Shown piece by piece: positions 6,630 through 24,087 of a stretch of DNA of 64,000 bases. How positions within the stretch are numbered: position 1 is the stretch's first letter; every line of letters starts with the position of its first letter. The position numbers and the translations under genes are program-made. The DNA is from an uncultured Rhodospirillaceae bacterium (GTDB lineage: Bacteria; Pseudomonadota; Alphaproteobacteria; Dongiales; Dongiaceae), in the NCBI GenBank assembly GCA_902826565.1, contig CADEFF010000002.1, forward strand, positions 62,001 to 126,000, given 5' to 3'. The notes under the pieces were generated by a model. It was given only the letters and a program-made list of their open reading frames with translations. It was not told where the DNA came from and made no database searches.

Positions 6630-6674
6630 GCCACCAAACTCCCGGGTTCCCACGCGGAGGGCCGGCTTCGCGCC

Positions 6675-9788: not shown

Positions 9789-9900
9789 CTTCATCCCCTC
9801 GGGGGGGGCGCGCGCAACCGGCGCGTGCCCATTGCCACGATGTTTATATTCGGGACCCGGTCCAGCGAGATTTTTTTGCCCCGCGGTCTAGGTGCGTTTG

Positions 9901-9952: not shown

Positions 9953-11143
9953 TCACCACCAGATCATCGGCGCCTTGGTGATCACTTCCGCACCTTTCTC
10001 CGTCACGATCAGGTTCTGCTCGAAACCCGCCGCACCCACGCCTGCGCGCCCCAGAAAGGCTTCGACGCCGAACACCATGTTCGGCTGGACGGTATCGGAC
10101 TCCTTGCACATCTGGGTGCCGATATAGGGGTCCTCCCAGAAGAGACCGAGGCAGTGACCATAGAGCGGCCATTGCGCCGAGGTCTGGTCCTCGCCGCCGC
10201 CGGCCTCCCTGGTCAGGCGCTCGCCGATCCTCGCGAGATCCATGACCTTCACCCCCGGCTTTATCGCGGCGATGACCTGCTCGACGATATTCGCCGTCGC
10301 CTCGATGAGGGACTTCTGGTCGGCATTGGGCCTGCTGCCGCAGACGGCCGTGCGGCCGGGATCGAGGTAATAGCCCTGATAGACGGGACCCAGCAGCCAG
10401 CTGCGCACGATATCGCCCTTCTCCGGCGCATCCGTGCTGTAGCCGGTCAGGGGCTGGCGCAGCCAGTAATCCAAGGTCTTGCCGTGATTGCAGGGCAGCA
10501 TGAGGAAGCCGCCGCCGCTTTTCATGATCTCGGTCGCCGCCTTCGCCGCCGCATCGCATTCGCGCTGGCCGCCGATGAGATTCTCCATGAAGGCCGTGAT
10601 GGCCCGCGTCGCCACCTCGCCGCCTTCGCGATAGCACTGGATCTCGCGCGGGCTCTTGATGCGGCGGACGGCCGCGACGAGATCCTCCTCCTCGACCCAT
10701 TCGATGCCCGGCGTCTGGGCAAAGAGCTGCTTCGCATATTTGTGGGGCAGAACGTCGCCGCCGACGAGAGCGACCCGCCCGCCGATCTTGCGCCGCTTCA
10801 GCGCCTCCGCCGTGCCCTTGATCGGATCGTAGTGATCCTCGATGCGGTCGATCGCGTAGAGGTCGGGCCGCCGGCCGGGCATATCGATATGGAGCTCGGG
10901 CTCTTTGCCCACTTCCATGATGAGCGCGCAGAAGGACCGCGCATTGAGCAGCGCATTGTCCGGCTCCTGGCCGGAGGCGCCGGAGTAGTAGTTGGTAAGA
11001 TAGAGCGTGTCCTGGCCGCGTTCGTGGAATCCGCCGCCGCGCCCCCAGATCACCGCCGCCGCATAGCCGCGACGGGCGAGCTCTTTCTCGACCTTGGCCC
11101 GACGGTCCTCATATTCGCCGATCGGGAAATAGCGCTCAGTCAT
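9953..11143 (-). CDS. M24-family (creatinase / Xaa-Pro peptidase fold) protein with an incomplete metal site
   Basis: A 396-residue pita-bread-fold protein with a creatinase N-terminal domain (about 1-150) and an M24 domain. Of the five usual metal ligands, the second Asp (YYLDPGRT), the His (YGHCLGL) and both Glu (FGVEAFLG and GFEQNLIVTE) are recognisable. The first Asp, expected 11 residues before the second, is Leu in RSWLLGPVYQGYYLD. Creatinase itself lacks the metal site, so a C-N hydrolase of a small nitrogen compound is as likely as a peptidase. It sits 49 bases downstream of the PotC-like permease and probably acts on the imported substrate. Confidence 0.8.
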   Translation of the reverse strand: MTERYFPIGEYEDRRAKVEKELARRGYAAAVIWGRGGGFHERGQDTLYLTNYYSGASGQEPDNALLNARSFCALIMEVGKEPELHIDMPGRRPDLYAIDRIEDHYDPIKGTAEALKRRKIGGRVALVGGDVLPHKYAKQLFAQTPGIEWVEEEDLVAAVRRIKSPREIQCYREGGEVATRAITAFMENLIGGQRECDAAAKAATEIMKSGGGFLMLPCNHGKTLDYWLRQPLTGYSTDAPEKGDIVRSWLLGPVYQGYYLDPGRTAVCGSRPNADQKSLIEATANIVEQVIAAIKPGVKVMDLARIGERLTREAGGGEDQTSAQWPLYGHCLGLFWEDPYIGTQMCKESDTVQPNMVFGVEAFLGRAGVGAAGFEQNLIVTEKGAEVITKAPMIWW

Positions 11144-11192
11144 TTGGTCATATCCCCTGATTGTCGTCGCAATTCCGTCGATGGCAACCCGC

Positions 11193-11984
11193 TCAACCGC
11201 GATAGCGCGTGACCACCATAGCGACGATAGAGAGCCCGACCGTCAAGCCCACGAGCAACGTTGCGATGGCATTGATCGTCGGATCCGTTTGCGTGCGGAT
11301 CATACCCCAAATGAAGGTCGGCAAGGTATTGCCGCCGGCGATCGTAAAGAAGGTGATGATGAAATCGTCCAGCGACAGCGCCATGGCGATGAGGGCGGCG
11401 CCGATGACGGTCGGCCGAATGAACGGCAACGTGACCGTGAAGAACGCCTTGAGCGGCGAAGCGCCGAGGTCGCGGGCGCTTTCGACCGTCGCATAGTTGA
11501 ACCCGACCATGCGGGCATAGACGATCAGGATCACGAAAGGCTGCGTGAAGACCAGGTGGCTGAGAATCACGGTGAAAAGGCTGAGTTGAAGGCCGACCTT
11601 CACGTAGAACACCATCAGCGCGATGCCCACCATGAGAGGCGGCACCATGACCGGCACGGAGAGCAGCATCATGCTCGGCCCCGCAATGCTTTCATGCAGC
11701 CGCGCGAGCGCCATCGCCGCCATTGTCCCGAACACCGTGGAGACGAAACCGACGGCGCCGGCGACGATCAGGCTGTTGGTGAGCGCGTCCCAGAAATAGA
11801 TGTTCTCGGTCAGCGCCACGTACCATTTGAGGGAGACACCCTGCATCGGGAACGTGGTCACCACCGTGTTGGCGAAGGAGAACAGCACTACCAGCGCCAG
11901 CGGCCCGAGCATGAAGACGAAGATCAATGCACCAAGGCCGCGCCAGAGCCATGCATAGAAGCGATTGGCGGAGATCGCTCTCAT
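11193..11984 (-). CDS. potC: PotC-like ABC permease (polyamine/opine/spermidine family)
   Basis: Inner-membrane permease of 263 residues with about six hydrophobic segments. The conserved cytoplasmic loop is ESARDLGASPLKAFF, followed by TLPFIRPTVIGAALIAMALS and DDFIITFFTIAGG, hallmarks of PotC-type subunits; the protein also carries LPTFIWGMIR. Its ATG overlaps the PotB stop by four bases. It is paralogous to the product of 21145-21921, with the same gene order around it. No ATPase gene accompanies it. Confidence 0.88.
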   Translation of the reverse strand: MRAISANRFYAWLWRGLGALIFVFMLGPLALVVLFSFANTVVTTFPMQGVSLKWYVALTENIYFWDALTNSLIVAGAVGFVSTVFGTMAAMALARLHESIAGPSMMLLSVPVMVPPLMVGIALMVFYVKVGLQLSLFTVILSHLVFTQPFVILIVYARMVGFNYATVESARDLGASPLKAFFTVTLPFIRPTVIGAALIAMALSLDDFIITFFTIAGGNTLPTFIWGMIRTQTDPTINAIATLLVGLTVGLSIVAMVVTRYRG

Positions 11985-12835
11985 TTGCGCCGCACCGTCG
12001 CAAGGAGCCGATTCGCGATCAGAAGGATCGCAACGCAGCCGAAGAGCGTCGAGAAGGACATGGCCGAGCCGAGCGGCCAATCGAAGCGGAAGCCGAAGAG
12101 GCTTTCGATATAGTTGCCGATCATCGTCGTGCTCGAACCGCCGACCAGGCGCGGCGTCACATAGTCGCCAGCGGCGATCAGAAAGGAAAAGGCGAAGGAC
12201 GCGAAGATGCCGGAGCGGCACTGCGGCAGGATGATGTAGAGGAAGGCTTCCCAGGGGCTCGAGCCGAGGTCGCGGGCGGCATCGATCGTGAGATCGTTGA
12301 CGCCGCGCAAGGCGCCATAGATCGGCAGGATCGCAAGCGGCAGCAGATAGTGGGTGAGCGTCACCACCATCGCGCCCGGATTGTAGATGAAGGCGGTAAT
12401 GGGCTGTTCGATCAGGCCAAGGTTGAGGAGCGTGGTGTTCAGGATTCCGTTGGTGCCCAGAATCGTCTTCCAGGCATAGACCTTGGCGAGATAGCCGCCG
12501 AACAGCGAGACGATCGCGCCGAACAGCAGGATGGTGCCGAACCGTCCCGCCTTGAAGCGCACGACATAGGCGAAGGCGAAGGCGAGAACGGTCGTCGCCG
12601 TCGCGATGATCCCGGCCATCAGAAAAGTGTAGGCGCCAACCTCGAGATACTCCTCATAGGTGCGGAGATAGTTGTCGAGCGTGAAGGTCGGCTCCAGATC
12701 GAACAGGCTGACCCGCCAGAAGCTGACCACGAAAAAGAAGAGCGTGGGCGCCAGGAACACCCCGACGAACACCGCGAGCGAGGGAACGAGCAGCAGGCTG
12801 CGGCTGCGGCCGAACGCCGCCAGCCAGAGGATCAT
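11981..12835 (-). CDS. potB: PotB-like ABC permease
   Basis: First permease of the importer, about 284 residues from ATG 12835. It has a membrane segment near the N terminus, the loop DAARDLGSSPWEAFLYIILP, and GDYVTPRLVGGSS, typical of PotB-type subunits. AGGGG lies a few bases upstream of ATG 12835; a longer in-frame reading to 12883 would start inside a strong inverted repeat, so the shorter start is preferred. It couples to the PotC gene by a 4-base overlap. Confidence 0.88.
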   Translation of the reverse strand: MILWLAAFGRSRSLLLVPSLAVFVGVFLAPTLFFFVVSFWRVSLFDLEPTFTLDNYLRTYEEYLEVGAYTFLMAGIIATATTVLAFAFAYVVRFKAGRFGTILLFGAIVSLFGGYLAKVYAWKTILGTNGILNTTLLNLGLIEQPITAFIYNPGAMVVTLTHYLLPLAILPIYGALRGVNDLTIDAARDLGSSPWEAFLYIILPQCRSGIFASFAFSFLIAAGDYVTPRLVGGSSTTMIGNYIESLFGFRFDWPLGSAMSFSTLFGCVAILLIANRLLATVRRK

Positions 12836-12860
12836 CGGGCGGCCCCTGCGACGACAGAGG

Positions 12861-12894
12861 GCGCGGCGCGCGCGATCCGGCATGCGCGCCGCGC
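12861..12894 (-). promoter_or_regulatory. Intercistronic stem-loop between binding-protein and permease genes
   Basis: An 11-bp perfect inverted repeat (12861-12871 with 12884-12894, loop 12 bases) lies 15 bases past the stop of the binding-protein gene and before the PotB start. Its position suits an attenuator or an mRNA 3'-end stabiliser giving more binding protein than permease. No U-tract follows, so it is not a complete intrinsic terminator. Confidence 0.5.
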
Positions 12895-12908
12895 GGGGAG
12901 CCTTGTCC

Positions 12909-14066
12909 TCATGCCTTCAGGAACCGTTCGTATCCTTCGAGCCACTGGTTGTAGGTCGCATGCTTCCCGTCGTCCTCGAACGGCGGCAAGGGGATGAGCG
13001 GCGCATGGGCGTTGAACGAGGCCATGTCGCCATAGGGGTAGATGGCGGCGGAGGCCGGCGCCATCAAAGGAACGGCCGAGGGATTGACGGCACCGCAGAA
13101 GATCTGGTCGCCGACCACGACCTGCGCCTCGGTGCCGATGGCGTGGTTCAGCAACCCATAGGTTTCATCGAGATAGGGCGCGTCCTTGGGAATGCAGAGC
13201 GTATCCATCCAGCCGTAGGATTTCTCGCTCGGGTATATCCAGTCGAGCTCGACGCCCTTCTCGCGCGCCCAGGAGGCCATCGGCTCCCAGCCCTGTGCTG
13301 CGATCTGGACCTCGCCGCGGATCAGCGCATCTAGCCCCTCGCCATAGCTCATGGCGAGCATACGCGCATGCTCCTTCTTGATCTTGATCATGTAGGCGAT
13401 GGTGTCGTCGAGCTGCTTCGGCGTGATCATGGTCGCGACATCGACGCCGGTCACCGTGTAGACCCAGTGGAACATGGTCGAGGTCGTGTCGTGGATGAGG
13501 CAGAACTGGTTCTTGTACTCGGGCTTCTCGAGGTCTGCCCAGTTCTGCGGCACCGGAAGCGCGGTGTCCTTGCGATAGACCAGCGGCAGCCCGCCCCAGA
13601 GATAGGGAACGAGGTACCGCTCGCCCTTGTAAAGATTGCCTTCGAAACTCTGCCAGAACGGATCCAGTTGCTGGAAATTCGACAACCTGTCCTTGTCGAT
13701 TTCCTGCAGCACGCCCGATTCCTGGAAGAGCGATACATAGTTCCAGGTCGGCATCACCAGGCCCATGGTGCCGAGCCCGCCGCCGCGAAGCTTGGTCAGG
13801 ATCGATTCGATGCTCGAGGCGAAGGTGCCTTCGAGCTCGATCTGGTTGTCCTGGATGTAGGACCCGGCGCGTAGCGGATAGCCATACTCCTCCCAGCCCA
13901 TCCATCCGATGGTCGCGGCGGCGTGCGCCTCGCGTCCGCTCAGACCAACCGCCGTCAAGCACGCCGTCGCCGCCGCTCCCTGCAGAAATCTGCGACGCGG
14001 CAGGCCAGCTTCCGTCGACCTCATCAACGAACGAAGAAGCCTTTCCGAATGGCTCGAAGGAATCAT
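12909..14066 (-). CDS. potD: Periplasmic substrate-binding protein, PotD-like, Tat signal
   Basis: Extracytoplasmic binding protein of 385 residues. The N terminus carries a twin-arginine type signal (LPRRRFLQGAAATACL) and a cleavage-like region at REAHAAA. The mature part follows the spermidine/putrescine-binding pattern, including IGWMGWEEYG, VYTVTGVDVA and MASWAREKGVELDWIYP. It is first in the operon binding protein-PotB-PotC-M24. The ligand is unknown. The paralogue at 22912-24087 has the same organisation, so the two importers may take related compounds. Confidence 0.85.
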   Translation of the reverse strand: MIPSSHSERLLRSLMRSTEAGLPRRRFLQGAAATACLTAVGLSGREAHAAATIGWMGWEEYGYPLRAGSYIQDNQIELEGTFASSIESILTKLRGGGLGTMGLVMPTWNYVSLFQESGVLQEIDKDRLSNFQQLDPFWQSFEGNLYKGERYLVPYLWGGLPLVYRKDTALPVPQNWADLEKPEYKNQFCLIHDTTSTMFHWVYTVTGVDVATMITPKQLDDTIAYMIKIKKEHARMLAMSYGEGLDALIRGEVQIAAQGWEPMASWAREKGVELDWIYPSEKSYGWMDTLCIPKDAPYLDETYGLLNHAIGTEAQVVVGDQIFCGAVNPSAVPLMAPASAAIYPYGDMASFNAHAPLIPLPPFEDDGKHATYNQWLEGYERFLKA

Positions 14067-14431
14067 GGTGGGTTGCCTCCGTTAGATGATCGTTTCGCTC
14101 CCTTGGTCTTCGTTATTCTCGTTCTCGAGCCTGCCGCTTCGAACGCCGCAGGTCGATGCCGGCGCACGCAGGCGCCGACAGCGGAAAGCATGAAGCAATC
14201 GCCTGCGGCAGGCAATCGACTCTGCCGGGTCGACCGCGACGTCGTGAGAGTGCCGCAAGAATTACTTACCGCGGCATTTAGATGCGTTTGCCCGGATGCT
14301 CGCGGGCGGCAGTCGGTCGCTTGATCGATTGGCGCAGATGTCGAGGCTGTCTATTATCCGCGGCTCGCAGGGCCGTCACTGCCCGGATGCGGTGCGGTCG
14401 ATCCATCGCCTAATAGGGAAACAAGCCAACC
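14067..14431 (+). other. Divergent intergenic region, 365 bases
   Basis: Gap between the leftward binding-protein gene and a rightward short-chain dehydrogenase gene; it should hold both promoters. Two dyads are visible: GCCTG-CGG-CAGGC at 14201-14213, and 6-bp arms TGCCGC (14251-14256) and GCGGCA (14271-14276) around an AT-richer 14-base centre. Either could be an operator. No coding sequence is evident and no promoter could be assigned confidently. Confidence 0.4.
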
Positions 14432-15187
14432 ATGTTGAACGGGAAAATTGTCCTAGTGACTGGCGCCACCTCCGGCATCGGGGCCGCCACCGCCCGCCGG
14501 GTCGCGAAGGCGGGCGCCACCGTGGCGCTGCTCGGCCGCGACGAGGCGCGCGGGAAGGCGCTCGAGAAGGAATTGGGCGCCGGCAAGTCCGCCTTCTTCT
14601 CCGTCGAGGTCACGGATTTCGCCTCCTGCGAGAAGGCCGTCGCGGCCGTCGTCAAGCGCTTCGGGCGCATCGACGCGCTGGTGAACGGCGCCGGCGTGTT
14701 CTTCTACGGCACCGCCATCGACCAGCAGCTCGATCATTGGCGTACGACAATGTCGGTGAATGTGGACGGCGTTTTCCATATGAGCCGGGCGGCGCTGCCC
14801 GGCATGATCGCCCAGGGCAAGGGCAATATCGTGAATGTCGCCTCCGACTGGGGGCTCGTCGGTGGGACACGCGCCTTTGCCTATTGCGCGAGCAAGGGTG
14901 CCGTCGTGCAGATGACCCGCTGCATGGCCCTCGACCACATCAAGCAGGGCATCCGCGTGAACGTGGTGTGCCCGGGCGAGACCAACACGCCGATGCTGAT
15001 GGAAGAATATGCCGCCCGCGGCCTTTCCGCGGCCGAAGGGTTCAAGGAAAGCGGCAACAACACGCCCATCGGTCGGGTCTGCCAGCCGGAGGAGGTGGCG
15101 GAAGCCATCCTGTTCCTGCTGTCCGACGCGTCGGGCTACATCAACGGCGCGGCCCTGCCGATCGACGGCGGCAACACCGCCGCCTGA
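14432..15187 (+). CDS. Short-chain dehydrogenase/reductase
   Basis: Classical SDR of 251 residues. It has TGATSGIG at residues 10-17 for NAD(P), NGAG at 85-88 in place of the usual NNAG, and the S138, Y151, K155 triad (YCASK). The C terminus has the usual INGAALPIDGG. R36 and D37 follow beta-2 (LLGRDEAR), slightly favouring NADP. It is divergent from the transporter operon and convergent with the NitT-type ATPase gene. The alcohol or ketone substrate cannot be assigned. Confidence 0.88.
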   Translation: MLNGKIVLVTGATSGIGAATARRVAKAGATVALLGRDEARGKALEKELGAGKSAFFSVEVTDFASCEKAVAAVVKRFGRIDALVNGAGVFFYGTAIDQQLDHWRTTMSVNVDGVFHMSRAALPGMIAQGKGNIVNVASDWGLVGGTRAFAYCASKGAVVQMTRCMALDHIKQGIRVNVVCPGETNTPMLMEEYAARGLSAAEGFKESGNNTPIGRVCQPEEVAEAILFLLSDASGYINGAALPIDGGNTAA

Positions 15188-15274
15188 GGCGGAAAGGGGC
15201 ATGAGCGGCCTCGGCCGGGACCGGGCGGGCGCGGGAAGGACACCCCGCGCGAGCCACGCATCGGCGATCCCGAC

Positions 15275-16123
15275 TCAGCGCCGCCGGGCCGCGACCCGGA
15301 GCATCTCTTCCTCGGTCCGCCGGGCCTGGGTCCGGATCACCGCCTGGATACGGTTGCGGAGATGGAGGAACTGCTCGGAGTCCTTGACCTTCAGGTCGCG
15401 CTTGGCCGGCAGGGTCTCGCTGACGCGAATCTCCTCGATGATGGTGGCCGGGCGCGCGCTGAAGATGAACACGCGTTCCGCGAGAAACACGGCCTCATCC
15501 ACGTCATGCGTCACGAAGACGATGGTCTTGCGTTCCCGCTCGCGGATATCGAGGAGCTGGACCTGCAGGAACTCCCGGTTCTGCGCATCGAGCGCGCCGA
15601 AGGGTTCGTCCATCAGAAGGATGTCCGGATCGGCCGCCAACGTGCGCGCGAGCGCCAGACGCTGCCGCATTCCGCCGGAGATCTTGTTCACGTAGAAGGA
15701 CTCGAACCCGACCAGCCCGACCAGGTCCACATAATGGCGGGCGATCTCGTCCTTCTCCCTTGCGGAAAGCCCATCGCGGAAGCGGAGCCCGAACTTCACG
15801 TTGTCGAGCACGTTGAGCCAGGGGAAAGAGGAATAGGACTGGAACACCACGCCCTTGCGCCGGTCCGGTCCCTTGACCGCCTCGCCGCCGAGCATCACCG
15901 TTCCGCTGGTCGGCTGGTCGAGCCCGCCCACGATGCGCATCAGGGTCGTCTTGCCGCAGCCCGACGGGCCGACGAAGACGGCGAGTTCCCCCTTCTCGAT
16001 GGTCATCGAGACATCGTCGATCACCTGCATGCCCGCATGCCGGTCGGCGCCGCCGAACCACTTGCTCACATGGTCGATCCGCAGGAAGTTCGCGTCGTCC
16101 GTGCTCGCCTCATGCTGCGTCAT
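15275..16123 (-). CDS. ssuB: NitT/TauT-type ABC transporter ATPase
   Basis: ATP-binding subunit of 282 residues in the nitrate/sulfonate/bicarbonate family. Walker A is GPSGCGKTT near residue 54, Q-loop VVFQSYSSFPWLNV, signature ISGGMRQR, Walker B ILLMDEPFGALD and H-loop VTHDVDEAVFLAER. It is the last gene of a complete importer operon (binding protein, permease, ATPase). Sulfonates, taurine, nitrate and pyrimidine precursors are all transported by this family, so the gene symbol marks the family only. Confidence 0.88.
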   Translation of the reverse strand: MTQHEASTDDANFLRIDHVSKWFGGADRHAGMQVIDDVSMTIEKGELAVFVGPSGCGKTTLMRIVGGLDQPTSGTVMLGGEAVKGPDRRKGVVFQSYSSFPWLNVLDNVKFGLRFRDGLSAREKDEIARHYVDLVGLVGFESFYVNKISGGMRQRLALARTLAADPDILLMDEPFGALDAQNREFLQVQLLDIRERERKTIVFVTHDVDEAVFLAERVFIFSARPATIIEEIRVSETLPAKRDLKVKDSEQFLHLRNRIQAVIRTQARRTEEEMLRVAARRR

Positions 16124-16175
16124 TCGCCGCCACCTTCGCTTTCGATCCCGTTCATGCCGCAGCCCCTCGCCCGCC

Positions 16176-16991: not shown

Positions 16992-17037
16992 CAGCATTCC
17001 TTCCGATCGGGCAAGAAAGTCATTCTGCACAAACGAA

Positions 17038-17069
17038 CCGGGAGGGCACGCCGGAGCGCGCCCTCCCGG
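17038..17069 (-). promoter_or_regulatory. Intercistronic stem-loop after the NitT-type binding-protein gene
   Basis: A 10-bp perfect inverted repeat (17038-17047, CCGGGAGGGC, with 17060-17069) and a 12-base loop starts 15 bases past the binding-protein stop and ends before the permease start. Placement suggests attenuation or 3'-end protection, lowering permease and ATPase relative to binding protein. There is no U-tract. Confidence 0.5.
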
Positions 17070-17084
17070 GTGATCGACCCCTGC

Positions 17085-18101
17085 TCAGCGGGTGTGGCCT
17101 TCGAACAGATTGCCGAGGAAAGAGGCGTCGACCTGATTGCCGTATTTCAGCGGCTCGTCGGCGACGCCCTGCTCGACATTGAGCTGCATCACCGTGTCGA
17201 AGATCCCCTGGAAGCGACCCGGTGCCTCATTCGTCCCGAATAGATCGACCGACTCTTCGTAGGTCGCGAGCTTGAGGCCCGCCATCGCCTCCTTCATCTC
17301 GGCCGGCGTGAGGTTGAAGGCCGGCGCCATGATCTCGAGCGCCTTGTCCGTCTCCTTGAAATAATAATCGGCGGCCCGATAGACGGCGCGCAGCATCCCG
17401 CGCACGAGCTCCGGATTCTTCTCCAGCAGCTCCTCGTGCAGGAAGATGATGTCGACGATCAGCTCCGGATAGTCTGCCGAATCCACGAGCTTGTAGGCGC
17501 CCGGCCGGACGTTCGCCGCCAGGATCTGGCTGAGCAGCGGCTCGTAGGATTCAATCACGTCGACCTTCGGATCCGCGAACACGGCGAGCCCGTCGGCCGT
17601 CGCGATATGCAGGATGTTGAGGTCGTTCAGCGTCATGCCGCACTTCTCCCGAAGCTCGATCTGGAGCAGGAGATTGGCCGGCAGTGTCGGCTCCATCGCG
17701 AAGGTCTTGCCCTTGAGATCGCAGACATCCTTGATGTCGCCACTGGCGATCACGCCGTCGCCGCCGCGCGAGAAATCCATGGCCGCGACGACCTTGCCCT
17801 TGGTCTCGGCGTTGCGCGGGCGGCTCAAATACTCGCCGATGGTGCGCGAGTTGCAGTTGATGTGGCCCGCCTCCATCGCTTCGGTCTGGATCTGGATGTC
17901 GTCCTCCTGGACGAACTCCATCTGCACGCCCTCTTCCTGGAAGTAGCCGAGCTTGTCGGCCAGGATGTAGACGCCCTGGCCCGGCCAGAAGGTGAAGGCG
18001 CAGACGAACTTGTCCGTATCGACCGCCTTGGCGGGCGATGCGGTTCCCGCCATCAGCGCAAAGCCGCCGATCGCCAGGCAACAGGCAATGAGTCGTTTCA
18101 T
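17085..18101 (-). CDS. ssuA: NitT/TauT-type periplasmic binding protein
   Basis: Secreted binding protein of about 338 residues beginning MKRLIACCLAIGG, with a Sec signal ending near TASPAKAVD. The mature chain has the SsuA/TauA/NMT1-like pattern: PGQGVYILADKLGYFQEEGV, then GDIKDVCDLKGKTFAM and ATADGLAVFADPKVDVI. AGGGA six bases before ATG 18101 supports this start over longer readings. First gene of the importer operon. The ligand is not evident. Confidence 0.87.
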   Translation of the reverse strand: MKRLIACCLAIGGFALMAGTASPAKAVDTDKFVCAFTFWPGQGVYILADKLGYFQEEGVQMEFVQEDDIQIQTEAMEAGHINCNSRTIGEYLSRPRNAETKGKVVAAMDFSRGGDGVIASGDIKDVCDLKGKTFAMEPTLPANLLLQIELREKCGMTLNDLNILHIATADGLAVFADPKVDVIESYEPLLSQILAANVRPGAYKLVDSADYPELIVDIIFLHEELLEKNPELVRGMLRAVYRAADYYFKETDKALEIMAPAFNLTPAEMKEAMAGLKLATYEESVDLFGTNEAPGRFQGIFDTVMQLNVEQGVADEPLKYGNQVDASFLGNLFEGHTR

Positions 18102-18126
18102 CGAGTTCCCTCCCATGGGTGTTATG

Positions 18127-18155
18127 CCGCCCGGCGATGCGACGCTGCCGGGCGG
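18127..18155 (-). promoter_or_regulatory. Stem-loop in the leader of the NitT-type operon
   Basis: A 9-bp perfect inverted repeat (CCGCCCGGC at 18127-18135, GCCGGGCGG at 18147-18155) with an 11-base loop lies 26 bases upstream of the binding-protein start and about 97 bases past the stop of the leftward SDR gene. It could end SDR transcription or structure the 5' leader; it has no U-tract. Confidence 0.35.
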
Positions 18156-18252
18156 GTCCGTTTGAACGCGATCATAGGCGAAATGGCATCGAGCCGAAAT
18201 CCGAATGCGCCGTAGCGCCCCGGCCATGAAACCTTCGCCATGCGGCGGCGCA

Positions 18253-19014
18253 TCACAGCGCGGTCGATCCTGCGGTCACACCGCCATCGACCATCAGTGC
18301 CGTGCCCGTGATGAAGGCCGCATCCTCGGATGCCAGAAAGAGAATTGCCCGCGCGATCTCCGCCGGCTTGCCGAGTCGTTTCATGGGCGTGTAGTTGCGA
18401 AGCGCCGCGCGATAGGCGTCGGCATCGGGCAGCGCCGCGGCGGTATCGTCGAAGATCCGGGTATCGGTGGGGGCCGGACAGACGCACGTCACCCGCACGG
18501 CGTTCACCAGCTCCATGGCGAGCGCCCGGGTGAGACCGACAATGCCGGCCTTTGACGCGGCATAGGCACCGACGTTCGGCGTGCCGATCACGCCCGCTTC
18601 CGAGGCGAGATTGACGATCACGCCGCGGCTCACCCGCAGATGCGGGACGGCGGCGCGGCTCGCGAAGAAGGTCCCCTTCAGATTGACGTCTATGATGCGG
18701 TCCCAGAGCGGCTCGTCCGTCGCTTCGATCGACGCCTCGCGATAGATCCCGGCATTGTTGACGAGCACGTCGAGACCGCCGAGCCCCTCGACGGCGCGAC
18801 GGACGATGGCCTCGCAATCGGCGACGGAGCCGACCGAACCGGGCGCTGCGACAAGGCTTTTGCCGCCAAGGGCGGCGATCGCGGCATCGACGGCGCCGCC
18901 GCCCAGGTCATTGACCGCGACCGTCGCGCCTTCCTGGAGAAAGGCCTCGACCGTCGCCCGGCCGATACCGCGCGCAGCGCCGGTGACGAGCACCCGCTTG
19001 CCTGCAAATCTCAC
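18253..19014 (-). CDS. Short-chain dehydrogenase/reductase
   Basis: Classical SDR of 253 residues starting at GTG 19014, which follows GAGGGGGCTGGG. Motifs are TGAARGIG (residues 11-18), NNAG (86-89), N111 in DVNLKG, and the triad S138, Y151, K155 (YAASK). D36 at the end of beta-2 (VNDLGG) favours NAD. The C terminus has GTALMVDGG. The gene is divergent from the LysR-type regulator, a classic regulator-target arrangement. Substrate unknown. Confidence 0.87.
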   Translation of the reverse strand: MRFAGKRVLVTGAARGIGRATVEAFLQEGATVAVNDLGGGAVDAAIAALGGKSLVAAPGSVGSVADCEAIVRRAVEGLGGLDVLVNNAGIYREASIEATDEPLWDRIIDVNLKGTFFASRAAVPHLRVSRGVIVNLASEAGVIGTPNVGAYAASKAGIVGLTRALAMELVNAVRVTCVCPAPTDTRIFDDTAAALPDADAYRAALRNYTPMKRLGKPAEIARAILFLASEDAAFITGTALMVDGGVTAGSTAL

Positions 19015-19174
19015 CCCAGCCCCCTCGCTCGACCGGAATTCGTTCCAAGCCGTTCCGGCGGCCCTGCCGGACCCGATCGTGACAGGAAACGCCCGCCAGA
19101 CGGCAGCTTTCCTTGCCGGAAACGAGGCGGACGGCATTTCCGCGCTGTCACGGTCCGGCAAGAACGTCTCACAT

Positions 19175-19192
19175 ACAATTGAATATTTCTGG
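19175..19192 (+). promoter_or_regulatory. Candidate LysR-linked element, copy 1
   Basis: ACAATTGAATATTTCTGG in the SDR/LysR divergent gap resembles ACAATCGAGAAATTCTGG (29258-29275) upstream of the acetone-carboxylase-type operon: 14 of 18 positions agree, and agreement continues more weakly downstream (25 of 40 overall). Both copies lie in relatively AT-rich promoter gaps. It may be a binding site for the adjacent LysR protein or a shared promoter element. This is a by-eye comparison only. Confidence 0.35.
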
Positions 19193-19258
19193 CGTTCTCT
19201 GTAAATAATGTTTGCGGGTCGGCAAGGCCCGCACGTCGATCCGAGGCTCCGCCTTCCC

Positions 19259-20158
19259 ATGCCGATCCGCCGCCAGAATCTGCCGCTGAATGCGCTCCGC
19301 ACCTTCGAAGTGCTGGGGCGCCACGGCCATATGCAGCGCGCCGCCGAGGAACTCGGCGTGACCCACGCAGCGGTCAGCCACCAGCTTCGGCTGCTCGAGG
19401 ATCTCGTCGGCATCACGCTCTTCCGGCGCAAGGGCGGGCTTCGCCTGACGCCGGAGGGGAGTCGCCTGCTGCCGATCCTCTCCGCCTCCTTCGACAAGAT
19501 GGAGGCGGCGCTCAATTTCATGAATCCGCTGTCGATGACGGGGCAGATCACCGTCGCCTCGACGACGACGCTCTGCGCGACCTGGCTCGCGCCGCATCTG
19601 CATCGCTTCCTAAACCGCCATCCGGAGATCGACATCCACCTCATCCCGACCGGCATTCCGGATACCGAGCAGCCGATGGAGGGAATTCCCGAGGCCGACC
19701 TCACCATCAATTACGGCGAGACCTTCGGACCGGGGCGGCGTACGGTGCTGCTCTCCAAGGTCGAGTTCTTTCCCGTCTGCAGCCCGAAGCTGCTCGCCTC
19801 GTCGCGGCCGCGCCGGCCCGCCGACCTGGTGAATTACGATCTCCTCTACGGCGAGTCGGACGAAGACTGGGAATGGTGGTTCACCCATGTCGGCCAGCCG
19901 CAGGTGCAACCGGCGCGGAAACTCATGCTGCGCGACACCCATATTGCGCTCGAATATGCGCGATCCGGCCATGGCGTCGCGATGGGCGACCAGCTCACCG
20001 CCAAGGTGGGGCTCGAGGACGGATCGCTGGTGCCGCTGTTCGACTACCGCATTCCCGCTCCGCACGACGTCTACATCATCACGCACAACGAGGCGGAGAT
20101 GTCGATCCGGACCAAGGAATTCGAGAACTGGCTGCGCAGCGACCTGCTGGCGCAATAG
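19259..20158 (+). CDS. LysR-family regulator, GcvA-like
   Basis: Regulator of 299 residues from ATG 19259. The helix-turn-helix covers about residues 18-42 (LRTFEVLGRHGHMQRAAEEL, then VTHAAVSHQLRLLED), the GcvA subgroup pattern, followed by the substrate-binding domain. An upstream in-frame ATG (19208) lacks a ribosome site; GAGG precedes 19259 at a rather long distance, so the start is uncertain. It is divergent from an SDR gene, probably a target, and convergent with the VOC gene. Confidence 0.82.
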   Translation: MPIRRQNLPLNALRTFEVLGRHGHMQRAAEELGVTHAAVSHQLRLLEDLVGITLFRRKGGLRLTPEGSRLLPILSASFDKMEAALNFMNPLSMTGQITVASTTTLCATWLAPHLHRFLNRHPEIDIHLIPTGIPDTEQPMEGIPEADLTINYGETFGPGRRTVLLSKVEFFPVCSPKLLASSRPRRPADLVNYDLLYGESDEDWEWWFTHVGQPQVQPARKLMLRDTHIALEYARSGHGVAMGDQLTAKVGLEDGSLVPLFDYRIPAPHDVYIITHNEAEMSIRTKEFENWLRSDLLAQ

Positions 20159-20171
20159 CCAGGCAGGTCGT

Positions 20172-21119
20172 TCAGCCGGGGTAGCGGGTTCCCGCGGGGG
20201 AGATGCCCGGTTCGCGTTCGAAGAACTTCAGTCTGACGCCAAGGATGTCTTCCGTCGCCAGGTAGGCGGCATGGCCGTTGGCGCCGTCCGCGGGCGCTAT
20301 ATCGATGTGGCGCGCCCGCAACTGTGCCAGGGCTCCCTCGTAGTCACCGCCGCTCACGCCGATGGAATGGGCGCTTGCGCCCTTGGCGTCGAGACGCTCG
20401 CGATAGGCGGAAGCCCCCTTGCCCGGCTCGACCAGCTCCCAGAGATAGCGGCCGATCCGCGCGGTGGCACGGCGCGCGATCGCCGGCGAAACGCGCTCCT
20501 CGACCGACCAGGGACCGATGCCGAGCTCGCCTGCATAGAGGGCGAGGCTCCGGGAGAGATCGCCCGTGACGAGGCCGGCCGAGACTGTCCGGTCGAAGAG
20601 CGGCGCGGCATCCGCTCCGTCGCTCTCCCCAGGGAAGCGGTAAAGCCTGTCGAGCATGGTTGCGTCGTGATCCTCGATCAGCTCGAAGATCAGATGCGCC
20701 CGCTCGCGGGTGTCGAGATAACAGAAGCGGCCGCAATAGTTGCCCTTCTGCACGACCGCATAGCCGCGGCGGCCGAACTCGCGAATGCAGTCCGCATAGC
20801 TCAACGGCTCATGCAGGAAGGCGACATGATGCAGGCCGGGCCCGCGCCGTTTCAGGAAATCCGCATAGATCGAGGCTCCCCCGGTCGGCTCCAGCAGTGA
20901 CCAGCCCATGCCGCCGACGGTGCTGAAGGCCACCCGCATCCGGTAGGGCGCGGGCGCGCCGGAAATCTCGGTGTCGAAGAGCCGGGGCGGCGCGAAGTCG
21001 TAGACGTCCCAGGGACCGATCCCCAGTTCCGTCGCGCAGCGCCGCACTGTCCGGTCGAGATCCGCGCAGACGAAGCAGAGCAGCGACAGGTCGGTAAGAA
21101 AGCCGTTCTCGAGGGTCAC
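20172..21119 (-). CDS. Double VOC-domain protein (glyoxalase/epimerase fold)
   Basis: Protein of 315 residues with two vicinal-oxygen-chelate halves, about 10-155 and 175-305. The first has GLHHVAF (H97, H98) and FELIE, resembling methylmalonyl-CoA epimerase and dioxygenase-type metal ligands. The second, beginning SAGLVTGDLSRSLALYAGEL, repeats the opening motif and has SAHSIGVSG and RLKFFE. GIGPW occurs in both halves, supporting internal duplication. It lies 25 bases after the PotC-like gene, so it is the fourth gene of that operon. Epimerase, isomerase or ring-cleavage roles are all possible. Confidence 0.78.
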   Translation of the reverse strand: MTLENGFLTDLSLLCFVCADLDRTVRRCATELGIGPWDVYDFAPPRLFDTEISGAPAPYRMRVAFSTVGGMGWSLLEPTGGASIYADFLKRRGPGLHHVAFLHEPLSYADCIREFGRRGYAVVQKGNYCGRFCYLDTRERAHLIFELIEDHDATMLDRLYRFPGESDGADAAPLFDRTVSAGLVTGDLSRSLALYAGELGIGPWSVEERVSPAIARRATARIGRYLWELVEPGKGASAYRERLDAKGASAHSIGVSGGDYEGALAQLRARHIDIAPADGANGHAAYLATEDILGVRLKFFEREPGISPAGTRYPG

Positions 21120-21144
21120 GGGGATGTGCGAGCTCCGCTGGCCG

Positions 21145-21921
21145 TTAGTTGCGATAGCGAATGAAGCGCATGCTGAGAACGCTCACGCTGACAGTCACCG
21201 CCATCAGGATCAGCGCCACGGCGTTGATCGAGGGGTTCATCCCTTTGCGCAGCATGCCCCAGAGGAAGGTGGGCAAGGTGTTGCCGCCGCCGATGGTGAA
21301 GAAGGTGATGATGAAATCGTCGACCGAGAGCGCCATGGCGACAAGCGCGGCGCCGATCACGGTCGGACCGATGATCGGCAGCGTCACCTGGAAGAAGGCC
21401 TGCAGCGGCGTGGCGCCCAGGTCGCGCGCGCTGTGGATCACCGCCTCGTCGAATTTCTCGAGCCGGGCATAGACGATGAGGATCACGATCGGCTGCGTGA
21501 AAACGACATGGCTCAGAATGACCGTGATGAGGTCGAGCTTGATGCCGAGCGTGACAAAGTAGGTCAGAAGCCCGATGCCGAGCACCAGCGGCGGCAGCAT
21601 CAGCGGCACCATGAGCGCGCCGCGGAGCGCAGAGCCGGTGCGCGGGCCCGCCCGCGTGAGCGCGATCGCCGACATGGTGCCGAGCACGGTCGAGACGACG
21701 CCGACGCTGCCGGTGATGACGAGGCTGTTGGAGAAGGCGCCCCAGAACTCGCGATCCTCGAAGAGCCTGTCGAACCAGGCGAGCGTCAGGCCCGTGATCG
21801 GGAAGGAGAGTGTGCTCCCCTCGCTGAAGGCAAACAGCGTCAGGATCACGAAGGGCGACGCGATGAAGACGAGCACCGCGAGGGTAAGAACGCCGAAGAC
21901 AGGTCCGGCCGGATGCTTCAT
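21145..21921 (-). CDS. potC: PotC-like ABC permease (second importer)
   Basis: Permease of 258 residues with six hydrophobic segments. It shares HSARDLGATPLQAFFQVTLP, PTVIGAALVAMALSVDDFI and LPTFLWGMLR with the permease at 11193-11984, showing the two importers are paralogous. Its ATG overlaps the PotB stop by four bases. No ATPase gene is present in this operon. Confidence 0.88.
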   Translation of the reverse strand: MKHPAGPVFGVLTLAVLVFIASPFVILTLFAFSEGSTLSFPITGLTLAWFDRLFEDREFWGAFSNSLVITGSVGVVSTVLGTMSAIALTRAGPRTGSALRGALMVPLMLPPLVLGIGLLTYFVTLGIKLDLITVILSHVVFTQPIVILIVYARLEKFDEAVIHSARDLGATPLQAFFQVTLPIIGPTVIGAALVAMALSVDDFIITFFTIGGGNTLPTFLWGMLRKGMNPSINAVALILMAVTVSVSVLSMRFIRYRN

Positions 21922-22769
21922 CGCGGCCTCGCGATGCGGGTGAGCAGCAGCACCGCGAACCCGATGACGAGCGCGGAGAGCGCGATGATCGAGAAGGACA
22001 TGGCGGCGCCGAGCGGCGGGTTGAAGCGGCTGCCGAACTGGTTCTGGATGAAGACGCCCATCATGGAGGTGACCGGACCTCCCACCAGGCGCGGCGTCAC
22101 ATAGTCCCCGACGGTAAAGAGGAAGGCCAAGGTGAAGCTGACCACGAGCCCGGTCCGGCATTGCGGCAGGATGATGTCGAAGAAGCTGCGCCAGCGGCGC
22201 GCGCCGAGATCGCAGGCGGCTTCGACCGATTGATCCCCGATCGAGCGCAACGAGCCATAGAGCGGCAGGATCGAGAGCGGCAGCAGGTAGTGCGTGAGGG
22301 CAACGACCACCGCGACCGGGCTATAGAGGAACATGTCGATCGGCTGCTCGATCGCGCCCGTCGCGATCAGTGCCGAATTGATGGCGCCGCTCGGGCCGAG
22401 GATCGTCTTCCAGGCATAGATCTTTGTGAGATAGCCGCCGAAGAGCGTGAACATCACCAGCGCCAGCATCAGATTGCCCCAGCGCGGTACCACGAACCGT
22501 GCGCTATAGGCGAAGAAGAAGGCGACGGCGGTGGTGGTGAGGGCGATGACGATCGCCATCCCGAAGGTGACGAGGATCGAATCCCAATAGCCGGTGAAGA
22601 CCTCGATGTAGTTCTCGAGGGTGAAATCGTGAGCGAGCTTGTAGGAGCGCATCTGCCAGAAGCTGGTGAGGAGCAGATGCAGCGCCGGCGCCACGAAGAA
22701 AACGAGGAAAAAGACCGCCGATGGCGCGGCGAGCGCGGTGTGGGCCGGGCGGCGGAGTGCAAGCGCCAT
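21918..22769 (-). CDS. potB: PotB-like ABC permease (second importer)
   Basis: Permease of 283 residues. It carries EAACDLGARRWRSFFDIILP and VGDYVTPRLVGGP, parallel to EAF-type and GDYVTPRLVGG segments in the 11981-12835 protein; LFGGYLTKIYAWKTILGPSG also has a close counterpart there. It forms a translationally coupled pair with the PotC gene. The gap to the upstream binding-protein gene is 142 bases and contains several inverted repeats. Confidence 0.88.
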   Translation of the reverse strand: MALALRRPAHTALAAPSAVFFLVFFVAPALHLLLTSFWQMRSYKLAHDFTLENYIEVFTGYWDSILVTFGMAIVIALTTTAVAFFFAYSARFVVPRWGNLMLALVMFTLFGGYLTKIYAWKTILGPSGAINSALIATGAIEQPIDMFLYSPVAVVVALTHYLLPLSILPLYGSLRSIGDQSVEAACDLGARRWRSFFDIILPQCRTGLVVSFTLAFLFTVGDYVTPRLVGGPVTSMMGVFIQNQFGSRFNPPLGAAMSFSIIALSALVIGFAVLLLTRIARPR

Positions 22770-22783
22770 GACGCTCAGGCCTC

Positions 22784-22859
22784 CCCCCGCCGGCGGAGCC
22801 GAACTGTCAGCGCGGCGTACCGCCTTCCGCTTTCCCGGCGGGGGATCGCGAAAGGCGGT
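22784..22859 (-). promoter_or_regulatory. Two interleaved inverted repeats in the second binding-protein/permease gap
   Basis: Arms CCCCCGCCGG (22784-22793) and CCGGCGGGGG (22835-22844) form a perfect 10-bp pair. Arms ACCGCCTT (22819-22826) and AAGGCGGT (22852-22859) form a perfect 8-bp pair. The pairs interleave, so they could form a pseudoknot or alternative hairpins. They lie between the terminator-like stem and the PotB start. Confidence 0.4.
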
Positions 22860-22874
22860 TGTGCGGATCGGTCG

Positions 22875-22893
22875 CGACGGCAGGAGGCCGTCG
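22875..22893 (-). terminator. Stem-loop after the second binding-protein gene
   Basis: A 7-bp perfect stem (CGACGGC at 22875-22881, GCCGTCG at 22887-22893) with a 5-base loop starts 18 bases past the binding-protein stop. This matches the position of stems in the other two importers and suggests partial termination or mRNA 3'-end protection. No U-tract is seen. Confidence 0.45.
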
Positions 22894-22911
22894 GCGGGAG
22901 CGTTCGAGCCA

Positions 22912-24087
22912 TCACGCCCGCTGGAACTTCTCCCAGCCGTCCAGGACCTGGTCGTAGGTCACGTGCGTCCCATCCGATTCGATCGGATAGAGGCGGGTCG
23001 CGCCGCCGGAGGCCTCGAAGTAGCTCGGGATGTCGCCATAGGGATAGAGCGCCTGTTGCTCAGGCGTGAGCAGCGGCACGGCATCGGCGGTGATCACGCC
23101 GAACGCCTCGTTTGCATTGGCCGCCTGCGCTTCCGGGGCGAGCGACTGATTGAGGATCAGATAGTCGGCATCGACGTTGGGCGCGTCGCGAACCATGGCG
23201 AAGCAGCCGACGAAATTGATGGCGCCTTCCTTCGGCACCGCCCATTTGATGTTCTTCGCATCGGCGCCGCCCCAGATGCTGCAAGGTTCCCAGCCGATCG
23301 CGATGACGATCTCCTCGTTCGCGAACATCGAAGCGAGGTCGCCCCAGCTCGGCGCGATGGTGAGGGCCTGCTCCTTCTTGAACTTGATGAGCAGGTCGAT
23401 CGTCTTGTCGAGTTCTTCCTGGGTCAGGTTGTAGACGTCCGAGCGGCCGGTCGCCGCCATGGCGAAGCTCATGGTGGCAGCGATCACGTCCTCGACGATC
23501 GCGGTCTTGCCCTTGAATTCGGGGCGGAACAGGTCGTGCCAGGAGTCGGGCGTGCCCTGCACCAGGTCGGCGTTCCACATCAGCGGGCAGGAACCCCAAT
23601 AGTTCGGCAGCGCAAAATATTTGCCGTCCTTGGAGATCCCGGGCGAGTTCTGGAACTGCGGGAAGACATTGGCGAAGTTCGGAATGCGGCTGAGGTCGAG
23701 CTCCTGCAGCAAGTCGCCCGCGAGATAGGCCGGCAGGAAATAGGCATCCGGCGTCACGATATCCATCTGACCGATGCCGCCCGCCTGCGCCGCCGCGATG
23801 ATCTCTTCGTTCGAGTTGATGTAGGTGGCCTGCAGCGTGATGTCGTTCTTCGCGAGCCAGCCGCCGGCATCGACGCTCGCGTCGAGCCCCTGCCATCCGT
23901 TGTAGCGCACCTCGGTCGCCGCCGCGGCCGGGCGAGCGCCGAAGCCGAGCGCGCCGGCCGCGCCTGCGGCCAGCATGCCCTTGCCGAAGCTGCGTCGCGT
24001 CATCGGCACGGGCACGCGGAAATGCACGAGGCCGCTGCCGGCCTTCGGCAGGATTCTATCGTTCGCTCGGTTGCGTTCGGCGGTCAT
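22912..24087 (-). CDS. potD: Periplasmic substrate-binding protein, PotD-like, Tat signal (second importer)
   Basis: Binding protein of 391 residues. The signal has PMTRRSFGKGMLAAGAAG, a twin-arginine form, with a likely cleavage region at ARPAAAAT. The mature chain begins EVRYNGWQGLDASV and ends DQVLDGWEKFQRA, similar in layout to the 12909-14066 protein. GGAGG five bases before ATG 24087 supports the start. It heads the operon binding protein-PotB-PotC-VOC and lies downstream of the acetone-carboxylase-type genes, all leftward. Confidence 0.85.
   Translation of the reverse strand: MTAERNRANDRILPKAGSGLVHFRVPVPMTRRSFGKGMLAAGAAGALGFGARPAAAATEVRYNGWQGLDASVDAGGWLAKNDITLQATYINSNEEIIAAAQAGGIGQMDIVTPDAYFLPAYLAGDLLQELDLSRIPNFANVFPQFQNSPGISKDGKYFALPNYWGSCPLMWNADLVQGTPDSWHDLFRPEFKGKTAIVEDVIAATMSFAMAATGRSDVYNLTQEELDKTIDLLIKFKKEQALTIAPSWGDLASMFANEEIVIAIGWEPCSIWGGADAKNIKWAVPKEGAINFVGCFAMVRDAPNVDADYLILNQSLAPEAQAANANEAFGVITADAVPLLTPEQQALYPYGDIPSYFEASGGATRLYPIESDGTHVTYDQVLDGWEKFQRA

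Follow-up and report, generated by a model that had tools for sequence, protein, structure and literature searches.

The two PotABCD-type importer operons described here have no PotA gene, and we put at about 0.55 the probability that their permeases are powered by a PotA of the same subfamily encoded elsewhere in the genome, in the C3 or the C62 system. Both lie in a window of 64,000 nucleotides from an uncultured Rhodospirillaceae bacterium (contig CADEFF010000002.1, positions 62,001 to 126,000). Judged from sequence comparison, sharing is the likeliest explanation for the missing ATPase genes. In the mechanism that we propose, the linked PotA has gone from operons 1 and 2, most simply by two separate losses, and a PotA dimer from another locus probably joins each PotB/PotC pair. 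Its source would be C3:64003-65046, the PotA of the C3 system, or C62:16624-17655, that of the C62 system. We infer that the permeases and a donor PotA do assemble, that a lasting match of coupling helix and ATPase groove within the subfamily made the losses tolerable, and that the donor PotAs are expressed whenever operons 1 and 2 are.

Two paralogous operons without a PotA gene

Both operons run leftward (operon 1, 14066-9953; operon 2, 24087-20172) in the order binding protein, PotB, PotC and enzyme, as the original prediction had it (Table 1). In each, PotC starts at an ATG in a 4-bp overlap with the PotB stop. The operons are paralogues with real four-gene homologous runs, for which chance is no issue, and share 55% identity in PotC, 48% in PotB and 33% in the binding protein. 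Neither contains a PotA gene, and the coordinates place only 25 bp (operon 1) and 142 bp (operon 2) between binding protein and PotB, which leaves no room for a relic ATPase gene. The lack of an ATPase gene could mean that the operons are decaying and that transport has been lost, but all frames are open (8/8) and the coupling helices retain the subfamily pattern, so that we give decay very little chance. The idea of a duplication followed by a change of enzyme fared less well than the absence itself: the operons are paralogous, but the C3 system and relatives form a group with operon 2 (100/99) that leaves out operon 1, and a tree forcing the two operons together as sister copies was rejected (p-AU 0.0103), which speaks against direct duplication.

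Table 1. Coordinates of the features discussed (window positions unless a contig is given)
Feature	Position	Strand	Remark
Operon 1 binding protein, SBP_bac_8, PotD-like	12909..14066	-	E171 of PotD lost
Operon 1 PotB-like permease	11981..12883	-	coupling-helix stretch DAARDLGSSPWEAF
Operon 1 PotC-like permease, 263 aa	11193..11984	-	coupling helix SARDLGA
Operon 1 M24-fold enzyme	9953..11143	-	Leu for first metal-ligand Asp
E1 alpha, acetoin/pyruvate dehydrogenase type	8817..9794	-	score under curated cut-off
E1 beta, acetoin/pyruvate dehydrogenase type	7789..8799	-	PRK09212.1, 347 bits (cut-off 321)
Acetoin dehydrogenase E2-like, lipoyl + alpha/beta hydrolase	6675..7784	-	PRK14875.1, 425 bits (cut-off 307)
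Diol dehydratase large + medium subunits, single frame	4365..6653	-	in the leftward run after M24
Diol dehydratase small subunit	3943..4368	-	in the leftward run after M24
SDR, divergent, adjoining operon 1	14432..15187	+	nearest named family meso-2,3-butanediol dehydrogenase, 252 bits (cut-off 270)
TauB/SsuB-like ATPase, between operons 1 and 2, not PotA	15275..16123	-	ATPase of a neighbouring importer
Operon 2 binding protein, SBP_bac_8, PotF/PotD-like	22912..24087	-	E36, E171 and D257 of PotD lost
Operon 2 PotB-like permease	21918..22769	-	coupling-helix stretch EAACDLGARRWRSF
Operon 2 PotC-like permease, 258 aa	21145..21921	-	coupling helix SARDLGA
Operon 2 enzyme, two VOC (Glyoxalase_4) stretches	20172..21119	-	follows PotC
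HyuA-like (hydantoinase A/oxoprolinase)	26992..29529	-	same strand as operon 2
HyuB-like (hydantoinase B/oxoprolinase)	24762..26972	-	same strand as operon 2
Acetone carboxylase gamma-like, upstream of operon 2	24218..24727	-	same strand as operon 2
PotA of third importer, outside subfamily PotA clade	61648..62745	+	open PotA-like frame
Orphan ATPase, 366 aa (row C32:11475)	C32:11346-12443		open frame

Permease and PotA subfamilies in the genome

The draft genome (162 contigs, 94.4% complete) holds 29 PotB/PotC pairs of this type, weaker matches such as C8:75658, C65, C83, C59, C4:65892 and others being omitted from the count. A PotA could be assigned to 26 of the pairs, the three exceptions being operon 1, operon 2 and C3:95954. 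The PotA-like proteins are the upper 29 of 113 genome matches; C83 and C8:74616 among them adjoin weaker permeases, and C32 is an orphan.

Four of the genome's own PotBC systems belong to one subfamily (operon 1, operon 2, C3:62394 and C62:14958), and the last two have a PotA. Their PotBs (C3:63186 and C62:14958 with those of the two operons) form a single clade (100/100), and so do their PotCs (100/97). In a PotA tree of 56 rows, the genome's own C3:64003 and C62:16720 (the row for C62:16624-17655) form a clade (100/99) with 27 subfamily-linked PotAs of relatives, taken from about 35 distinct ones seen, and the remaining 27 own rows fall outside it. These two are the only PotAs of the subfamily lineage found in the draft genome, and each sits within another complete operon rather than as an unlinked ATPase gene. 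Operons without an ATPase gene are thus found together with a matching ATPase elsewhere, the match being one of tree position, score gap and motif. As to motif, the residue after FQ-x-Y is Gly in 29/29 PotAs of the clade, whereas the own rows outside it have Ala, Ser or Thr in the 26 of 27 that can be read; we take this position to be an interface residue, the counterpart of MalK A85. The PotC coupling helix reads SARDLGA in all four own subfamily members and in 0/25 other own PotCs. Neither motif is a strict marker: EAARDLGA stands beside a linked Gly-type PotA in L103, L125, L167 and L240, among others, and an ATPase of G402 outside the subfamily reads FQDYG (L188).

PotBC identity to operons 1 and 2 is 56 and 57% for the C3 system and 53 and 50% for the C62 system. 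For the 26 own systems with a linked PotA, distances between PotAs correlate with those between PotBCs (Mantel r 0.344; maximum over 2000 permutations 0.271). Where the nearest PotBC neighbour is at least 50% identical (12 systems), the PotA of that neighbour is the nearest PotA in nine cases and the second nearest in three; the rule is correct in 9/26 systems overall and in 0/14 where PotBC identity is below 50%. On these distances the matching of PotA to PotBC across the genome is loose overall, and operons 1 and 2 lie within the range of at least 50% identity to both the C3 and the C62 system.

Other candidate ATPases

The PotA at 61648 had been described as the only one in the window and proposed as the ATPase shared by all three importers. 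It is the sole PotA-type ATPase there, yet not the sole ABC ATPase, since a TauB/SsuB-like ATPase lies between the two operons, adjoined by its own permease (named by eye) and an NMT1-like binding protein. The PotA at 61648 is an open PotA-like frame on the same contig as operons 1 and 2, about 38 to 52 kb away, but it belongs to a different lineage and has Ala where the subfamily PotAs have Gly. In our trees the PotBC of its own importer is outside the subfamily. Its identity to the PotBCs of operons 1 and 2 is no more than 34-35%, which places it fifth and fourth, respectively, among 26 systems; the C3 system reaches 56-57% and the C62 system 50-53%. Trees, PotBC identity and motif together rule against it as the partner, and we regard one motor at 61648 for all three importers as most improbable.

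The search for an orphan ATPase gene, which the original prediction had suggested, did turn one up on C32, but of another lineage. The 16 kb around its open frame contain no match to PotB, PotC or a binding protein, and it lies between genes that by eye resemble ScpB and TatB. It could serve as a common motor in the way of MsiK in actinomycetes; in G001 and G030 the C32-type ATPase also lies beside ScpB-/TatB-like genes and is equally free of permease matches within 1.5 kb. The protein, however, sits on a long branch far from the subfamily PotAs, has Ala in place of their Gly, and scores weakly against its nearest families (PhnT2, 270 bits with 458 needed; PotA, 244 with 356 needed). Of 11 loci examined in relatives, eight have a PotC-like permease beside the C32-type ATPase, so the gene belonged to another importer, and its use by operons 1 and 2 is unlikely.

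A third, unlinked subfamily PotA might lie in the unassembled part of the genome, given the completeness of 94.4% and the loose linkage in some relatives: PotA and PotBC are 15 kb apart in G004, and in five relatives' loci PotA is a separate opposite-strand gene 1.5-5 kb away. The 156-kb contig around both operons carries no such gene, however, and we consider this very unlikely. The C3 or C62 PotA stays our preferred donor.

Linked PotA kept or absent in relatives

A subfamily-type PotA was found within the examined stretch in 28/35 relatives' loci of one set and in 11/15 of another, in which five loci repeat contigs of the 35. A dedicated ATPase linked to these operons in relatives had been named in advance as contrary evidence to sharing; such linkage exists, but in this genome the two PotAs of that type sit in other complete operons. 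Among 12 searched genomes with subfamily operons, eight hold a subfamily PotA (at least 470 bits, the next match being at most 406), and four (G086, G398, G400 and G402) have the subfamily's permeases without its PotA. Secure ATPase-less operons occur in five genomes (G000, G004, G008, G178 and G398), four of which hold a subfamily PotA.

The absence of PotA is scattered over the trees. In the stricter tree, seven secure rows require seven changes, at least five of them forced, and 500/500 shuffles are equally low, so that the absence label is not clustered at all; in the wider tree, 11 rows without linked PotA require 10 changes, at least eight forced, and 324/500 shuffles are equally low. 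The wider tree omits contig repeats, L098, L121, L124, L127, L129 and loci without both permeases, and the stricter one additionally omits L172, L113, L114 and L235 (short contigs) and L125 (long branch).

Since G398, whose contigs reach 2 Mb, has no subfamily PotA, its two such operons, if working, can only be driven by an ATPase from a different lineage. The same genome has an unlinked C14-type PotA (L231:9074-10177; own C14:20534 is 62% identical). Permease genes occur in that 18-kb stretch only about 5 kb off, on the opposite strand and with their own PotA. A 19-kb stretch of G398 also holds a C14-type PotBC and contains no PotA. Together with G400, which likewise lacks a subfamily PotA, and with the MsmX-type ATPases that serve several importers as described in PMC7658222, these cases favour a largely interchangeable pool of PotA-like proteins, from which operons 1 and 2 would draw PotAs of several lineages. 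We hold this to be rather unlikely, as the own subfamily PotAs and PotCs carry lineage-specific letters and 8/12 genomes do have a subfamily PotA. Two PotAs of closed genomes from a single genus, G008 (3099658) and G003 (2176453), were also considered as orphans and rejected, as weak PotBC matches adjoin both; the PotAs of G003 and G008 were typed down to about 278 bits (34/54 and 35/52 matches).

Comparison with known systems

The sharing of ATPases is itself already known from other bacteria. The closest precedent to a C3 or C62 donor is p5pAB of Actinobacillus, described in PMC8427247 as an operon without an ATPase that takes its power from the ATPase of a complete paralogous system: supplying AfuC of that system, whose proteins are 54-60% identical, restored growth of E. 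coli. That case concerns a vitamin B6/hexose phosphate family, and sharing is experimental there and proposed from sequence here. MsiK, MsmK and MsmX are alike in that a single ATPase drives several importers (PMC7658222; for MsiK, PMC8427247), but they have been described for carbohydrate importers, mostly Gram-positive, with orphan ATPase genes, whereas the putative donors here are of PotA lineage in complete operons and the genome's relatives are alphaproteobacteria.

A wider reading, which we offer tentatively, is that PotABCD-type importers of this alphaproteobacterial family share a pool of PotAs, with repeated independent losses across permease subfamilies and with pairing set by lineage-specific coupling-helix and groove letters, not by operon membership. 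If so, about 29 importers would run on fewer motors, for which the uptake systems could compete. Annotation of ABC importers usually takes each operon by itself and labels one without an ATPase incomplete. A potA deletion should not be read as the loss of one importer alone. In this subfamily the ATPase gene is missing repeatedly and, it appears, independently, and is kept by other members; the named donor candidates and the one-residue difference at the presumed interface make the specificity of permease-ATPase pairing directly testable.

Binding proteins, enzymes and flanking genes

Both binding proteins contain a twin-arginine stretch, seen by eye, in keeping with the Tat-type label given to them. 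The acidic spermidine contacts of PotD are E36, D168, E171 and D257 as listed in PMC11414716. In our alignments, the operon 1 protein keeps W34, E36, Y37, D168, W229, W255 and D257 of PotD and has lost E171, and the operon 2 protein is without E36, E171 and D257, so that three and one of the four acidic contacts remain, short of the full PotD set. Operons 1 and 2 are thus like E. coli PotABCD in having a binding protein, PotB and PotC of the same families, and differ from it in the absence of PotA and in these residues, which speak against the usual specificity for polyamines, most of all in operon 2. The curated PotB, PotC and PotD models score below cut-off for both operons, a result that discriminates little because zero PotB/PotC of the whole genome reach those cut-offs.

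Xaa-Pro peptidases of family M24 bind metal through a D, D, H, E, E set. The operon 1 enzyme keeps four of the five ligands of Xaa-Pro dipeptidase, with Leu for the first Asp, and thus lacks the complete set. Related M24 proteins are found beside one relative's operon (L130, 46-47% identical) and about 4 kb from the own C4 system (50%), with weak matches in L100 and L258, and the operon 2 VOC query gave zero matches in the searched stretches around such importers; a conserved link to M24 or VOC is therefore rejected. An SDR immediately follows PotC in 20/42 subfamily operons (L097 and L172, where PotC has no downstream room, were set aside and five repeats or incomplete loci omitted), as scored with a model built partly from SDRs adjoining these very operons; 24 of the 25 other own PotCs were taken into the comparison.

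The enzyme gene was expected to be the last of each operon. It does follow PotC, but the M24 gene is not the end of the run on the operon 1 side: after a gap of 158 bp, leftward genes continue (9794-3943) with E1 alpha, E1 beta, E2 and diol dehydratase. Operon 2 is preceded by a same-strand run (29529-24218) of HyuA, HyuB and acetone-carboxylase-gamma-like genes.

Operons 1 and 2 contain no ATPase gene

As first noted, PotA is absent from both operon 1 and operon 2, two PotABCD-type importer operons of the window (C2:62001-126000), and the intergenic space is too small for one. In both, the PotB stop codon is the site of the PotC start; identity between the operons is 55% for PotC, 48% for PotB and 33% for the binding proteins. 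The ATPase gene between them (15275-16123) is TauB/SsuB-like and part of a neighbouring importer.

The genome is a draft (4.19 Mb, 162 contigs, C-numbers here; 94.4% complete), from which we compared the best 29 PotA-like proteins of 113 ABC ATPase matches (weaker and stronger) with 29 PotBC pairs. A PotA was assignable to 26 of the 29 pairs, mostly an adjoining one (3-7 kb off on the same strand for the C48, C66 and C3:54294 pairs). The three pairs without PotA are operon 1, operon 2 and C3:95954-97467; the last falls with C48 and C5, not with operons 1 and 2. Of the three PotA-like proteins left unassigned, C83 and C8:74616 adjoin weaker permease matches, and the other is the orphan on C32.

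Coordinates of the features discussed (window positions unless a contig, C, or fetched locus, L, is given)
Feature	Position	Remarks
Operon 1 (leftward from 14066), binding protein	12909-14066	
Operon 1, PotB	11981-12883	
Operon 1, PotC	11193-11984	
Operon 1, M24 enzyme	9953-11143	
Operon 2 (leftward from 24087), binding protein	22912-24087	
Operon 2, PotB	21918-22769	
Operon 2, PotC	21145-21921	
Operon 2, enzyme with two VOC stretches	20172-21119	
Permease, two BPD_transp_1 stretches in one frame	1-1920	at window edge; ABC ATPase just outside, C2:60961-61587
Diol dehydratase, large and medium subunits in one frame	3943-6653	adjoins acetoin-dehydrogenase-like genes
PotBC pair without PotA	C3:95954-97467 (L093, L045)	HyuA/HyuB matches nearby and a gene DUF1989-like by eye
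Orphan PhnT2/PotA-like ATPase	C32:11346-12443 (L029:1369-2469, L270)	366 aa; flanked by ScpB- and TatB-like genes (named by eye)
Unlinked C14-lineage PotA, genome G398	L231:9074-10177	subfamily importers there without matching PotA
Unlinked C14-lineage PotA, genome G400	L244:1786-2889	4.6-kb contig; subfamily importers there without matching PotA
C70-type PotBC and binding protein, closed genome G008	L267 (G008:C1:774000-792000)	closest PotA 353 kb off
SDR (one or two) directly after PotC	L104, L108, L109, L111, L113-L118, L124, L131, L158, L160-L162, L166, L170, L232, L240	

Candidate partner ATPases

In the own-genome trees, operons 1 and 2 cluster with the systems at C3:62394-63935 and C62:14958-16501 (PotB 100/100; PotC 100/97), both of which have a PotA (gene orders binding protein-PotA-PotB-PotC and binding protein-PotB-PotC-PotA). 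We refer to this lineage as the subfamily. A tree joining operons 1 and 2 as direct duplicates, the origin first proposed for them, was rejected (p-AU 0.0103). The PotAs C3:64003 and C62:16720 fall in a single clade (100/99) with 27 PotAs near the subfamily permeases of relatives; the other 27 own rows of the tree fall outside it, among them the window PotA (61648), which groups with C38:33914.

The residue after the FQ-x-Y motif is Gly in 29 of 29 PotAs of the subfamily clade vs 0 of the 26 readable among the 27 other own rows; it is also Gly in four further PotAs that lie close to subfamily operons or in genomes with such operons (L234, L237, L238, L240) and in L188, an ATPase outside the subfamily. 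We take this position to be that of MalK A85, at which mutations of the EAA loop can be suppressed. No statement of this equivalence was found in the portions of the literature searched, PMC3150292 included. The PotC coupling helix reads SARDLGA in 4 of 4 own subfamily members and 0 of 25 other own PotCs, and varies among subfamily relatives.

Across 26 linked own systems, the distances of PotA and PotBC show a modest correlation (r 0.344; permutation maximum 0.271). The rule 'nearest PotBC, nearest PotA' works only above 50% PotBC identity: the PotA of the nearest PotBC is the nearest PotA in 9 and the second nearest in 3 of the 12 systems with at least 50% PotBC identity, and the nearest in 0 of the other 14. 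Operons 1 and 2 are within the 50% range of the C3 and C62 PotBC, vs 34-35% identity to the third importer of the window. The proposal that the PotA of that importer drives them gives way to better candidates, the subfamily PotAs.

Repeated absence of a linked PotA in the subfamily

A search with an alignment of the four own subfamily PotBs gave 61 loci in named genomes, of which 35 (L097-L131, at least 39% identity) make up the subfamily in relatives. A PotA of the C3/C62 kind is in the stretch examined in 28 of the 35; the stretch is shorter than 11 kb for five of the seven without. Ten further matches of at least 333 bits are spread over eight of 61 genomes (own and relatives), and five of 385 genomes of the class, own included, have a match at E 1e-85. 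Among 15 such loci fetched (five repeating contigs of the 35-locus set), 11 have a subfamily PotA and 4 none (L158, L159, L169, L172); in L160, L161, L163, L164 and L166 it is a separate gene on the opposite strand, 1.5-5 kb off. At L159/L104 (genome G004), the stretch examined shows no PotA and no matching binding protein with the subfamily PotBC. HyuA and HyuB homologues (24-29% identical to those of operon 2) occur in the neighbourhood of subfamily operons in 5 of the 35 loci (L100, L103, L106, L112, L128).

Among the 40 rows of a PotB+PotC tree, seven securely lack a linked PotA: operons 1 and 2, L158 (from a closed genome), L104, L169 and two rows of G398. L104 was scored as unlinked, with the subfamily PotA of its genome 15 kb off on the same contig. 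Placing the absence label on this tree takes 7 changes, of which well supported branches force at least 5, and the label is unclustered (500 of 500 shuffles were as low). With four less secure cases added, 11 rows without linked PotA need 10 changes, at least 8 forced. As a PotA of the matching clade is present in most members, the changes would most simply be read as PotA losses.

Of the 27 PotCs in G008, a closed genome, 2 lack a PotA (at least about 278 bits) that starts within 10 kb, those of L158 and of the C70-type pair L267; in G003 this holds for 0 of 25, and the only PotA near its C70-type pair is a subfamily one. L269 (G008), a pair of the C3:95954 lineage, shows no dedicated PotA within the 8 kb examined and adjoins another complete system.

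We searched 12 genomes, picked for having subfamily operons, for the subfamily PotA, which stands out by score (at least 470 bits vs at most 406 for others). It is present in 8 (two each in the own genome and G397; one each in G003, G004, G008, G178, G399 and G401) and was not found in G086 (82% complete), G398, G400 and G402. In G398, PotA is missing from two subfamily operons and from one C14-type PotBC, and one C14-type PotA is unlinked, so that up to three importers would have to run on an ATPase of another lineage. This exception favours some freedom of pairing and keeps alive, beside lending by the subfamily PotAs, the rival explanation that importers draw on a common PotA pool.

An orphan ATPase and known shared ATPases

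The orphan ATPase on C32 has no PotB, PotC or binding-protein match in the 16 kb around it, and scores below both family cut-offs (best PhnT2, 270 bits, cut-off 458; PotA, 244, cut-off 356). A search of 41 genomes gave matches at E 1e-60 in 27, many being ordinary PotAs. In the best 11 loci of relatives a TatB-like gene always adjoins the ATPase (11 of 11), and in 8 a match to a PotC-like permease lies no more than 1.5 kb off (none in G030, G001 and G027); the ATPase therefore appears either to come from another importer, lost around it in some genomes including this one, or to be now free. It could be a shared motor, but nothing in its lineage points to operons 1 and 2.

Sugar importers are known to share ATPases, namely MsmX/MsmK (PMC7658222) and MsiK (as cited in PMC8427247). 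The closest precedent to operons 1 and 2 is p5pAB with AfuC (PMC8427247). Literature searches on shared or missing ATPases, and on orphan ATPases in rhizobia, brought up no PotABC system of this kind among the papers listed. That operons 1 and 2 are a case of an already known kind is well founded; the record of repeated PotA absences is unusual.

Enzymes and cargo

An SDR gene directly follows PotC in 20 of 42 subfamily operons with room for it (25 of 42 within 4 kb), vs 0 of 24 other own PotCs (4 of 24 within 4 kb). In the window this slot holds the M24 gene (operon 1) or the VOC gene (operon 2), with SDR genes within 4 kb; the divergent SDR by operon 1 resembles meso-2,3-butanediol dehydrogenase. 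Acetoin/pyruvate-dehydrogenase-like and diol-dehydratase genes lie 3' of operon 1 on the same strand.

Four acidic residues of PotD contact spermidine (PMC11414716). Aligned with PotD, the operon 1 binding protein keeps three of the four (phmmer aligns its D168 column differently) and that of operon 2 one; E171 is absent in 15 of 15 binding proteins aligned (operons 1 and 2, C3, C62, the third importer and ten relatives). Judged from these alignments, a common polyamine is an unlikely cargo for operons 1 and 2.

Of the five metal ligands, four are conserved in the M24 protein and likewise in the two nearest relatives compared. M24-fold proteins without the first metal-binding Asp, near PotABC-type genes, are that of operon 1, L130:985-2166 (47% identical to it) and L263 near 12546 (50%).
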